A model generated the notes under the pieces. That model had not been told where the DNA came from, did no database searches, and was given only the letters and a program-made list of their open reading frames with translations. Below are positions 3,448-6,378 of a DNA stretch of 64,000 bases, piece after piece; within the stretch, counting starts at the first letter, position 1; each line of letters opens with the position of its first letter. The translations under genes were made by a program, and so were the position numbers. The stretch covers positions 3,472,001 through 3,536,000 of the forward strand of contig NZ_CP011371.1 of NCBI RefSeq assembly GCF_001017435.1, written 5' to 3'. Source of the stretch: Caldimonas brevitalea (lineage in GTDB: Bacteria > Pseudomonadota > Gammaproteobacteria > Burkholderiales > Burkholderiaceae_C).

Positions 3448-3996
3448 TTACTTCCGCTTCTTCGGCGCCAGCACCATGATCATCTGGCGGCCTTCGAGCT
3501 TGGGCATGTTCTCGACCACGCTGACATCGGTCAGGTCGTCGCGGACCCGCTCCAGCAGGCGCATGCCCAGTTCCTGGTGGGTGATCTCGCGGCCGCGGAA
3601 GCGCAGCGTGACCTTGCCCTTGTCGCCTTCTTCAAGGAAGCGGCGCAGATTGCGCAGCTTGATCTGGTAGTCGCCCTCGTCGGTGCCGGGGCGGAACTTC
3701 ACTTCCTTGATGTCGATGACGTGCTGTTTCGCCTTCGCCTCGGCCGCCTTCTTCTGCTCCTGGTACTTGAACTTGCCATAGTCCATCAGGCGGCAGACCG
3801 GCGGCGTCGCCGTGGGCGCGATCTCGACCAGGTCCACGTCGTGTTCCTGTGAAAGCCGCAGTGCCTCCTGCAAGCTCACGATGCCGATCGGCTCATTGTC
3901 GGGCCCGTTCAGCCGGACTTCCGGCGCCGTGATTTCCCGATTCAGACGATGCTTGCGCTCCACGTTGGGAGTGCGCCGGTCCATGAAAGTAGCGAT
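3448..3996 (-). CDS. infC: Translation initiation factor IF-3, probable ATC start
   Basis: IF-3 binds the 30S subunit, keeps subunits apart and checks the start codon. The N domain ([16 protein letters not shown]), the lysine-rich linker ([13 protein letters not shown]) and the C domain ending LAPKKRK are all present. The first ATG at 3984 would give 178 residues but has no Shine-Dalgarno at proper distance. TGAGGA lies 8 nt before an in-frame ATC at 3996, giving 182 residues ([14 protein letters not shown]). IF-3 genes are known for rare AUU/AUC starts, which IF-3 itself discriminates against and so autoregulates. I therefore place the start at ATC 3996. The thrS stop is about 86 nt upstream and the gap holds a terminator-like structure. 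Confidence 0.93.
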
Positions 3997-4082: not shown

Positions 4083-6002
4083 TCACACCTTTTGGGCAAT
4101 GTCGCTTGCAATCTTCTGGGAGAAGGTGTCGAGTGCCATCACACCGAGGTCTTGGTTGCCCCGGGCGCGCACTGCGACGGTTCCCGCCGCTTTCTCTTTG
4201 TCGCCGACAACGAGGATGTAGGGAACCTTCTGCAACGAATGCTCGCGGATTTTATACGTGATTTTTTCATTGCGCAAATCGGCCTCTGCCCTAAGTCCTT
4301 GTTTTTGCAGCGTTTTGACTACTTCTCGAACGTAATCCGCCTGCGCGTCGGTGATATTGAGTACAGACACCTGCTGCGGCGCCAGCCAGACCGGCAGCGC
4401 GCCGGCGTGCTGCTCGATCAGGATGCCGATGAACCGCTCCATGCTGCCGACGATCGCGCGGTGCAACATGACCGGCACCTGGCGGTCGCCACTTTCCGTG
4501 ACGAATTCCGCACCCAGCCGGCCCGGCATCGAGAAGTCGACCTGGATCGTGCCCACCTGCCACTGGCGCCCGATCGCGTCCTTCAGCGTGTACTCGATCT
4601 TCGGCCCGTAGAAGGCCCCCTCGCCGGGCGAGATCGCGAATTCGCAGCCGGATGCGCGCAGGCTCTCGATCAGCGCCGCTTCGGCCTTGTCCCACACCTC
4701 GTCCGAGCCGATGCGGGCGTCGGGCCGGGTCGCGACCTTGTAGATGATGTCGGTGAAACCGAAATCACGATAGACACGCTGCAGCAGCGCCGTGAACTCG
4801 GTGCACTCGGGCAGGATCTGGTCTTCGGTGCAGAAGATGTGGCCATCGTCCTGCGTGAAGCCGCGCACCCGCATGATGCCGTGCAAGCCACCCGTCGGCT
4901 CGTTGCGGTGGCACTGGCCGAACTCGCCGTAGCGCAGCGGCAGATCGCGGTAGCTCTTGATGCCCTGCTTGTAGATCAGCACATGGCCGGGGCAGTTCAT
5001 CGGCTTGAGAGCATAGTCGCGCTTCTCGCTCTCGGTCGTGAACATGTTGTCGCGGTACTTGTCCCAGTGGCCGGTCTTCTCCCACAGCGCGCGGTCCAGC
5101 AACTGCGGGCCCTTGACCTCGCGGTAGCCGTTGTCGCGGTACACGCCGCGCATGTACTGCTCGACGCACTGCCAGACCGTCCAGCCCTTGGGATGCCAGA
5201 ACACCACCCCCGGCGCGTGATCGTCGATGTGGAACAGATCGAGCTCACGCCCGAGCTTGCGGTGGTCGCGCTTTTCGGCTTCCTCCAACATGTGCAGATA
5301 CTGCTGCAGCTCGTCCTTGCCGGCCCAGGCGGTGCCGTAGATGCGCTGCAGCTGCTCGTTGCGATGGTCGCCGCGCCAATAGGCGCCGGCCACCTTCATC
5401 AGCTTGAAGTGCTTGAGCTTGCCGGTGCTCGGCACGTGCGGGCCGCGGCACAGGTCGGTGAAGCCGCCTTCGCTGTAGAGCGACACGTCTTCGTTGGCCG
5501 GAATGCTGGCGATGATCTCGGCCTTGTAGTGCTCGCCCAGGCTCTTGAAGTACGCCACCGCCTCGTCGCGCGGCAGCACACGGCGCTCGACCTTCTCGTC
5601 TTTCTTGGCCAGCTCGGTCATCTTCTTTTCGATGGCCTGCAGGTCTTCGGGCGTGAACGGCCGCTTGTACGAGAAGTCGTAATAGAAGCCGTTCTCGATC
5701 ACCGGGCCGATCGTGACCTGAGCCTCGGGAAACAGCTCCTTGACGGCATAGGCCAGCAGGTGCGCCGTCGAATGGCGGATCACGTCCAGGCCGTCGGGGT
5801 CCTTGTCGGTGATGATGGCCAGCGTCGTGTCCTGCTCGATGCGGTAGCTGGTGTCGACCACGCGCGCCGCGTCGCCCTGCCCCACCCGCCCGGCCAATGC
5901 CGCCTTTGCCAGGCCGGCGCCGATCGACGCCGCCACCTCTGCCACGGTCACCGGGCCCGGAAACTCACGTCGGGACCCGTCGGGCAACTGAACTGAAACC
6001 AT
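4083..6002 (-). CDS. thrS: Threonyl-tRNA synthetase
   Basis: ThrRS, 639 residues, charges tRNA-Thr. The TGS domain (residues 1-65) is followed by the editing domain with [10 protein letters not shown] (His77, His81) and DLCRGPHV (Cys185, His189). The class II core has the zinc ligand in MNCPGH (Cys337), and the anticodon-binding domain is C-terminal. Length equals the bacterial norm. AGAGG lies 5 nt before the ATG at 6002. The 5' leader is long and contains a threonine-rich 13-residue peptide, a competing antiterminator, an intrinsic terminator and three 11-bp tandem repeats. This points to control by charged tRNA-Thr. The gene heads the infC-rpmI-rplT-pheST block. Confidence 0.98.
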
Positions 6003-6028
6003 CTTGACCTCTCACCGGCGCCGCCAGC

Positions 6029-6061
6029 GCCACAAACAAGCCACAAACAAGCCACAAACAA
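6029..6061 (-). repeat. Three perfect 11-bp tandem repeats in the thrS leader
   Basis: GCCACAAACAA occurs three times in perfect tandem on the plus strand (TTGTTTGTGGC on the thrS coding strand). The array directly follows the U-tract of the thrS leader terminator and ends 27 nt before the thrS start. The units are U/G-rich in RNA and could extend the terminator's U-tract or serve as a protein-binding site. No function is proven. Confidence 0.9.
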
Positions 6062-6086
6062 AAAAGCGCGGTGGTCGCCGCGCTTT
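6060..6086 (-). terminator. thrS leader terminator (attenuator hairpin)
   Basis: On the minus strand AAAGCGCGG (6086-6078) pairs perfectly with CCGCGCTTT (6071-6063) and the T-run continues into the tandem repeats. It lies inside the untranslated leader, about 45 nt after the leader peptide stop and 58 nt before thrS. The 5' arm is also complementary to GCCGCGGCTTTC at 6124-6113 (11 bp with one bulge), which would form an antiterminator. Confidence 0.8.
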
Positions 6087-6131
6087 CTTGGATTCGAAAA
6101 AGACAAACAAACGAAAGCCGCGGCCGACCGA

Positions 6132-6173
6132 CTAGACCTCAAAAACGTCAGCGGTGGTAGTTCGCGGTGTCAT
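6132..6173 (-). CDS. Threonine-rich leader peptide upstream of thrS
   Basis: A 13-codon frame, ATG to TAG, encodes MTPRTTTADVFEV: four threonine codons (ACA, ACT, ACC, ACC), three of them consecutive. AAAGG lies 11 nt upstream. The frame stops 8 nt before the 5' arm of a predicted antiterminator, which is followed by a perfect intrinsic terminator before thrS. The layout is that of classical translation-controlled attenuation. A ribosome stalled on the Thr codons would cover the CCGCG segment (6167-6163) that can pair with the antiterminator arm. That would free the arm to disrupt the terminator, so thrS is read when charged tRNA-Thr is scarce. The peptide is too short for homology, so the call rests on composition and RNA architecture. 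Confidence 0.7.
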   Translation of the reverse strand: MTPRTTTADVFEV

Positions 6174-6219
6174 AACCCGTTGTGCCTTTCTCGCTCTTGA
6201 CTGGGTGAAGAAGAGCGCA

Positions 6220-6225
6220 ATTCTA
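6220..6225 (-). promoter_or_regulatory. Possible -10 element of the thrS leader promoter
   Basis: TAGAAT on the minus strand (5 of 6 matches to TATAAT) lies 47 nt upstream of the leader peptide start. The -35 region would overlap the T-tract of the aceA terminator and is a poor match, so this is only a candidate. Confidence 0.3.
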
Positions 6226-6238
6226 ACGCAATAGACGC

Positions 6239-6267
6239 AAAAAAGCCCGGCAGCGTCGCTGCCGGGC
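6239..6267 (-). terminator. Intrinsic terminator of aceA
   Basis: GCCCGGCAGCG and CGCTGCCGGGC form an almost continuous 11-bp inverted repeat followed by six T on the minus strand. It lies 112 nt after the aceA stop and separates aceA from the thrS leader. The 111 nt between the aceA stop and this hairpin show no other feature. Confidence 0.88.
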
Positions 6268-6378
6268 CAATGCATCTTCACATCAGATGCTTCGCGCGTC
6301 TCACGAGCGCGCCGCCCAGCGGCGCGCAACGGAGTCAGGACATCGGCGCCGCCGGCTCGAGGCCGGCGACGGGGCCGA

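Follow-up and report, generated by a model that had tools for sequence, protein, structure and literature searches.

The window, by which we mean the whole stretch of 64,000 nucleotides that was analysed, carries the gene of threonine--tRNA ligase, thrS, on its minus strand. Upstream of thrS lies the isocitrate lyase gene aceA, and the sequence places a leader region between these two genes. The genes and the parts of the leader are as follows.

3448..3996, minus strand: infC, encoding IF3, the 3' neighbour of thrS (TIGR00168 match over 3448-3984, and sequence)
4083..6002, minus strand: thrS, threonine--tRNA ligase, the gene taken to be controlled (NCBIfam TIGR00418, 718.9 bits, cutoff 383.65)
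6060..6086, minus strand: predicted Rho-independent terminator, a 9-bp stem and a T-run (sequence and fold)
6077..6087, minus strand: segment 3, the terminator 5' arm GAAAGCGCGGC, common to the antiterminator (sequence and fold)
6113..6124, minus strand: segment 2, the antiterminator arm, or arm 2, GCCGCGGCTTTC (sequence and fold)
6132..6173, minus strand: leader peptide open reading frame MTPRTTTADVFEV, with ATG at 6173, TAG at 6134-6132 and the Thr codons ACA, ACT, ACC and ACC
6160..6177, minus strand: conserved core GGTTATGACACCGCGAAC, 18 nt, running from 4 nt before the ATG through codons 1-4 to the second base of codon 5
6163..6167, minus strand: segment 1, CCGCG within codons 3-4, predicted to pair with arm 2 when free of ribosomes (fold of 6200-6059)
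6185..6190, minus strand: Shine-Dalgarno sequence GAAAGG of the leader frame, in which AAAGG occupies 6189-6185 (sequence)
6220..6225, minus strand: predicted -10 element TAGAAT (sequence; TANAAT is conserved in leaders of family f1)
7677-6379, minus strand: aceA, isocitrate lyase, the 5' neighbour of the leader (NCBIfam)

Several observations concern the surroundings of the leader. The infC gene probably begins with the ATC at 3996-3994, four codons 5' of the ATG given in the list of open reading frames (on the 3984 side), and an ATC start is what is expected for IF3 genes. It could be carried on the same transcript as thrS. In the gap between rplT and pheS, a hairpin (AAAGGCCG..CGGCCTTT) is followed by a T-run at 2621-2596 of the window, which may be an attenuator or a terminator before pheS; no Phe-rich open reading frame was seen by eye. 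An 11-bp repeat stands in three perfect copies between the leader terminator and thrS (6029-6061). On the other side of the leader, aceA possesses a terminator-like hairpin of its own at 6268-6244, and the region of this terminator (6239-6329) gave a sub-threshold Rfam match to anti-hemB with 23.1 bits (gathering score 49.5, E 0.0027).

The leader transcript is predicted to start at about 6213. A TANAAT motif that ends 38-66 nt 5' of the leader ATG was found in 27 of the 32 leaders of the window's own family f1, against 0.9 expected. No good -35 element was seen for TAGAAT, and a consensus promoter scan of the leader region returned no promoter. An AAAGG-like site is present in 31 of the 32 f1 leaders.

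The codons of the leader frame are ATG ACA CCG CGA ACT ACC ACC GCT GAC GTT TTT GAG GTC, followed by TAG. A base-by-base check thereby agrees with the preliminary description, which had reported a frame of 13 codons with four Thr codons, three of them consecutive, and an AAAGG site of its own. The pairings given there were likewise recovered: GCCGCGGCTTTC (6124-6113) is complementary to GAAAGCGCGGC (6087-6077) over 11 bp with one bulged G, and CCGCG in codons 3-4 (6167-6163) is able to pair with CGCGG of arm 2. The perfect 9-bp terminator with a T-run was found at 6086-6060. Its stem is formed by AAAGCGCGG (6086-6078) and, beyond the loop, CCGCGCTTT (6071-6063) in nine perfect pairs, the T-run reaches 6060, and the stem as picked ends 58 nt 5' of thrS. 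What is found at this locus is a leader frame with a ribosome-binding site, a run of Thr codons, a terminator ahead of the gene, and an antiterminator, formed by segments 2 and 3 (2:3), that excludes the terminator.

The window RNA was folded as a naked strand at equilibrium, kinetics being outside the scope of these folds, and a ribosome was modelled by folding the RNA from its position onwards. When RNA 6200-6059 is folded whole, the pairing of segments 1 and 2 (1:2) forms together with the terminator. Folding from 6148, which corresponds to a ribosome on the Thr codons, yields the 2:3 antiterminator and no terminator, and folding from 6121, with the ribosome on the stop codon, yields the terminator, so that the antiterminator and terminator folds are mutually exclusive. 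The terminator probability amounts to 0.998 in the free RNA and 0.997 with a ribosome on the stop codon, and it is 0.11, 0.013 and 0.012 for a stall at codons 5, 6 and 7. When the spacer that separates the stop codon from the terminator was dinucleotide-shuffled, 19 of 1500 shuffles reached this three-state pattern. Taken alone, the 2:3 duplex of the window beats its shuffles (p 0.012), the 1:2 duplex does not do so significantly (p 0.136), and the antiterminator stretch 6148-6076 is no stabler than its shuffles (z -0.8). In the window transcript cut before the 3' arm of the terminator, the upstream pairing of the 5' arm was 0.91 in the stalled, 0.81 in the stop and 0.26 in the free state; that the stop state comes so close to the stalled one speaks against a clean switch.

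We are rather confident that transcription of thrS is attenuated in its leader, in the ribosome-mediated way, and that the signal sensed is charged tRNA-Thr. That the leader is transcribed and translated, that ribosomes stall on it and that it responds to Thr is what we infer, and the device would work in the following way. RNA polymerase would transcribe the leader, and a ribosome would initiate on MTPRTTT. With Thr-tRNA-Thr in plentiful supply, this ribosome would reach the stop codon, where it would partly cover arm 2, and then depart, upon which segment 1 could pair with segment 2. Whether the ribosome is at the stop codon or has departed, the terminator would form either way, and thrS would be off. 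If Thr-tRNA-Thr is scarce, the ribosome would stall on ACT or ACC at codons 5-7 and cover segment 1, arm 2 would be free to pair with the terminator 5' arm, and transcription would read through into thrS, perhaps also into infC and beyond, with the effect that more synthetase is made. A classical ribosome-mediated attenuator had already been suggested in the preliminary description, and this reading is supported by the parts themselves, by their conservation before thrS, and by the simulated stalling on the Thr codons, which frees arm 2.

Conservation was assessed in the DNA 5' of thrS from 130 genomes of Burkholderiales including the window's own, namely 59 of a first set of 60 and 71 of 80 further ones. 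From the first set G016 was left out, in which no thrS was found. Left out of the second were G084, G128, G091, G093 and G118, where a core before thrS had already been seen by the pattern search, as well as G095 and G108, in which thrS is split or partial, G110 (no thrS found) and G124 (match from residue 22). For G067 and G112 one thrS copy each was read and the second copies were left out. A terminator-like hairpin near thrS is present in 101 of the 130 genomes. An open reading frame before the thrS terminator with Arg-Thr near its start was detected in 48 genomes, against 1.7 expected from shuffles, and one with at least three Thr residues likewise in 48, an overlapping set, against 2.3 expected from shuffles. 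Either type of leader frame occurs in 56 genomes, two of which are doubtful (L137 and L154); these two are within the 56-leader counts and are excluded from the sets of 54 leaders used for folding and from the duplex-energy set. Three leaders that are visible by eye (L048, L120, L122) were missed by the detection rules and are uncounted. The remaining 54 leaders belong to 14 families (f1, f3, f5, f6, f8, f14, f20, f22, f23, f28, f39, f47, f49 and f51). In f1 the leader is present in 32 of 35 genomes, with 24 genera, and absent from L017, L027 and L030; outside f1, 24 of the 95 genomes of the order yielded a leader, including the two doubtful ones. The comparison of relatives that had been proposed as a check was thus positive in this respect, as numerous genomes of the order keep a Thr-rich peptide 5' of thrS. 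No leader frame was detected outside the order, where 29 genomes from the rest of the class were read; these come from 95 with thrS and are not a random sample, all being among the 33 best-scoring by ThrS.

The peptides vary (MTPRTTTT.., MSFRTTTTGTLNQG, MFKRTTTTRISR, MAVRTTTTHP, MNILRTATLM), and all are placed ahead of the terminator. In a few leaders only Thr2 and Thr5 are retained (MTPRTQGFGPGGNAGL, MTPRTQSSQGFIPLA). Leader length ranges from 9 to 27 codons among the 54 leaders, and with so few codons the leader probably escapes annotation. After codon 5, Thr accounts for 61 of 242 residues, against 33.4 expected when the same bases are shuffled (24 f1 genera, one leader each), and after MTPRT it accounts for 165 of 700 residues in 78 named loci.

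A scan of named genomes for the exact core GGTTATGACACCGCGAACT returned at least 118 stretches, and 80 of these loci were read. Among the matches listed, thrS follows on the same strand in 79 of the 80, identified in 78 cases by tblastn at 121-311 nt from the core and in the 79th by the thrS N-terminus where the stretch ends; in the remaining locus the stretch ends 47 nt past the core. Carriers of GGTTATGACACCGCGAACT, again among the matches listed, are Variovorax, Acidovorax, Comamonas, Polaromonas and Roseateles, which we take to be Comamonadaceae and their neighbours, Massilia, Janthinobacterium and Herbaspirillum, presumably Oxalobacteraceae, and Cupriavidus. The shorter pattern ATGACACCGCGAAC is less specific and has matches in 50 of 399 genomes; thrS lies downstream in 28 of the 30 such loci that were read, the exceptions being L061 and L064. 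An exact match to the core occurs once in the window's own genome. As possible further copies, five sites with 3 mismatches were considered there and rejected, the reversed control pattern giving 4 matches.

These results bear on a view in which there is no leader control at all, the reading frame being a product of chance and the hairpin a plain terminator of upstream transcription, from aceA here and from tRNA-Val elsewhere. A tRNA-Val gene does lie upstream in other families, and L103, L105, L107 and L113 have a similar hairpin without a detected reading frame (the tRNA was confirmed in L103). But aceA has its separate terminator at 6268-6244, a conserved -10 element lies between aceA and the leader, 48 leader frames stand against 1.7 expected, and the core is found just 5' of thrS, so that we give this view hardly any credence and keep to the attenuator.

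The tRNA-Val genes deserve a remark of their own. In L103, L105, L107 and L113 a tRNA-Val-like end is followed by the terminator-like hairpin AAAGTGCGG..CCGCACTTT and then by thrS, no leader frame being detected, and here the hairpin appears to be kept without the peptide. A tRNA-Val (GAC) gene was found 5' of thrS in all 11 of 11 hand-chosen loci (L042, L103, L108, L131, L132, L134, L151, L164, L178, L093 and L121), and tRNA-Val upstream of thrS occurs in other families of the order as well as in other orders of the class. It may represent the older arrangement, which would have been lost in genomes of the window's own family.

As the arms shift and differ between genera, duplex energies were compared with those of shuffled sequences instead of scoring base-by-base covariation. 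The set comprised 70 leaders, 16 of which were hand-picked among the 30 pattern-search loci; for the own family there were 39 leaders, 31 of them from distinct genera, and in both counts two leaders are included that belong to another family, f10 (the 31 thus being 29 from f1 and two from f10). The 2:3 duplex, formed by arm 2 with the terminator 5' arm and loop, lies below the mean energy of shuffled spacers in 63 of the 70 leaders, and an antiterminator in relatives, also named as a check in the preliminary description, is to this extent supported. For this duplex, p is 1.5e-6 in the 31 own-family leaders and 0.001 (t-test) or 1.6e-4 (Fisher) in 14 leaders taken one per other family; for the 1:2 duplex, p is about 1e-5 in the own-family set and 0.04 (t-test) or 0.25 (Fisher) with one leader per other family, all these values being too small since related genomes are not independent. 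Under a stricter setting, which uses the 5' arm without the loop, the pooled p is about 1e-6 for both duplexes, with the same reservation, and 21% (2:3) and 18% (1:2) of 56 leaders reach p < 0.05 singly. The 1:2 pairing is accordingly backed mainly in the window's own family and is weak in the others, and the antiterminator beats shuffles across families. Arm 2 itself differs by group (GGCCGCGGC, GTTCGCGC, TCCGCGCG, CTTTTTC) and still pairs with the terminator arm in most leaders.

The ribosome masks were also applied to the 54 leaders. A stall cut the terminator probability by at least 0.2 relative to both other states in 26% of them, against 6% in the null, and at equilibrium the full three-state switch is missing in 74%. 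With the transcripts truncated ahead of the 3' arm, the upstream pairing of the 5' arm was higher in the stalled than in the free state in 34 and lower in 3 of the 54 leaders; compared with the stop state, it was higher in 24 and lower in 2.

The most conserved part of the leader is the 18-nt core with its CGA-ACT/ACG codon pair, and not the run of Thr codons. Every column of GGTTATGACACCGCGAAC is at least 96% constant in the 24 f1 genera, and nearby columns range from 29 to 96%, the top value belonging to the AAAGG site. The exact core is found in 31 of 36 MTPRT leaders, and in these even synonymous positions are frozen, with ACA at codon 2 in 36 of 36 and CGA at codon 4 in 35 of 36. The core is constant while arm 2 varies, and pairing alone therefore does not account for it. 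In the 48 leaders with an Arg-Thr pair, the Arg codon is CGA in 47, and Thr is encoded 42 times by ACT and 6 times by ACG; in 30 thrS genes, CGA makes up 3.8% of 1266 Arg codons and ACT 3.6% of the Thr codons. The 36 MTPRT leaders share descent, and the other 12 of the 48, which have different peptides, also have CGA. Two other explanations of the core were discarded by eye: a second coding frame across it (GYDTANY), as the spacing from AAAGG to the core shifts by single bases between relatives, and mimicry of the tRNA-Thr anticodon by GGUU, as the preceding base varies.

The constancy of the core nucleotides exceeds what the peptide or the 1:2 pairing would need, and it could thus be proposed that a factor, ThrRS as in E. 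coli or another one, binds the leader RNA through the 18-nt core, with peptide and terminator as an output device only. There is a precedent in E. coli, where ThrRS binds hairpins of its own thrS leader mRNA and blocks the ribosome, according to a passage of PMC3858243. Yet no CGU-type anticodon hairpin was seen in the core, and the enrichment of Thr in the frame would be left without explanation. In addition, the pattern of the E. coli-type operator, an anticodon-like hairpin whose loop is of the CGU type, matched 0 of the 130 sequences of the order, as opposed to 16 of 29 sequences of other orders (L161-L189), in which it lies directly before thrS and after the reading of which the pattern was written. 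We therefore regard binding of a factor to the core as improbable and prefer the attenuator read by the ribosome; a mode of control unlike that of E. coli thrS had been anticipated in the preliminary description, and the 0 of 130 agrees with it. Beyond the 16, further operator-like hairpins were noticed by eye in L166, L174 and L186 of the other orders.

The near-invariant CGA could also mean that the signal is not Thr alone but slow translation in general, or the Arg-tRNA that reads CGA. The 47 of 48 leaders with this codon, set against its share of 3.8% in the thrS genes, would speak for it, but only a single Arg codon is conserved whereas Thr codons are enriched, the gene served is thrS, and some leaders of f3 and f23 (MTPLT, MRPPT) have no CGA at that place. 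We think this very improbable and retain charged tRNA-Thr as the signal. CGA is read slowly in bacteria, and it is our guess that, with such a slow codon in the P site, the ribosome stalls more sharply at the first Thr codon used for sensing. Going further, the invariant core GGUUAUGACACCGCGAAC might be a dedicated sensor module, in which the rare, slow CGA occupies the ribosomal P site at the moment when ACU or ACG, the first Thr codon to be sensed, moves into the A site, whereby a small drop in charged tRNA-Thr would cause a strong stall, or in which the core is read by a further factor; the translational operator of thrS would then have been replaced by transcription attenuation in the ancestry of the Burkholderiales. 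We put this extended proposal forward only tentatively and lean against it as it stands.

Attenuation of synthetase genes is already known, and what appears to be new is its use for thrS in Burkholderiales, with an unusual conserved core. The thr operon leader of threonine biosynthesis encodes a Thr-rich peptide that also has Ile codons and is part of an attenuator; the leader described here is alike in peptide and attenuator, but it has thrS as its gene and not a biosynthetic operon. The Rfam family Thr_leader (RF00506) gave no match at gathering score, the 16.2 bits obtained against the required 55 being at chance level and on the opposite strand. In E. coli and gamma-proteobacteria, the pheM leader of pheST contains Phe codons. 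This synthetase gene is under a classical attenuator, as stated in PMC1262725, and the thrS leader is similar in both respects but differs in the amino acid, Thr instead of Phe, in the gene, and in the sequence-invariant core. Classical attenuators are also predicted for trpS and leuS in Streptomyces (PMC1262725), again 5' of synthetase genes but with other amino acids and in another phylum. For hisS, part of PMC2965389 describes a leader peptide in some bacilli and a T-box in others, that is, an exchange of charging sensors between lineages; such an exchange would be the likeness to thrS, with His, Firmicutes and T-box versus peptide in the one case and operator versus peptide in the other. 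Codon bias in attenuation leaders, that of the thr operon included, is discussed in part of PMC1183508.

The E. coli thrS operator shares with the leader the gene and the control of enzyme supply, but it acts on translation, whereas the leader would be a transcription attenuator that reads charged tRNA. The T-box of Gram-positive thrS genes also senses tRNA-Thr charging 5' of thrS; unlike the leader, it binds the tRNA directly and has no peptide. T-boxes were not among the 10 Rfam matches up to E 10 in 5950-6350, nor did any reach the gathering score in the window. Literature searches yielded no account of a leader peptide that attenuates thrS in Burkholderiales; an earlier prediction is possible, most likely in Vitreschak 2004 (FEMS Microbiol Lett) or Lopatovskaya 2010 (Mol Biol).

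The invariant CGA-Thr pair offers a direct way to ask whether a slow codon tunes the sensitivity of an attenuator. More generally, thrS is a textbook case of translational autoregulation by a gene's own product, and it seems that in a large order numerous members instead control it by reading the charging of tRNA-Thr through a leader peptide. One and the same need on thrS would thereby be served by three unrelated devices, namely operator, T-box and attenuator.
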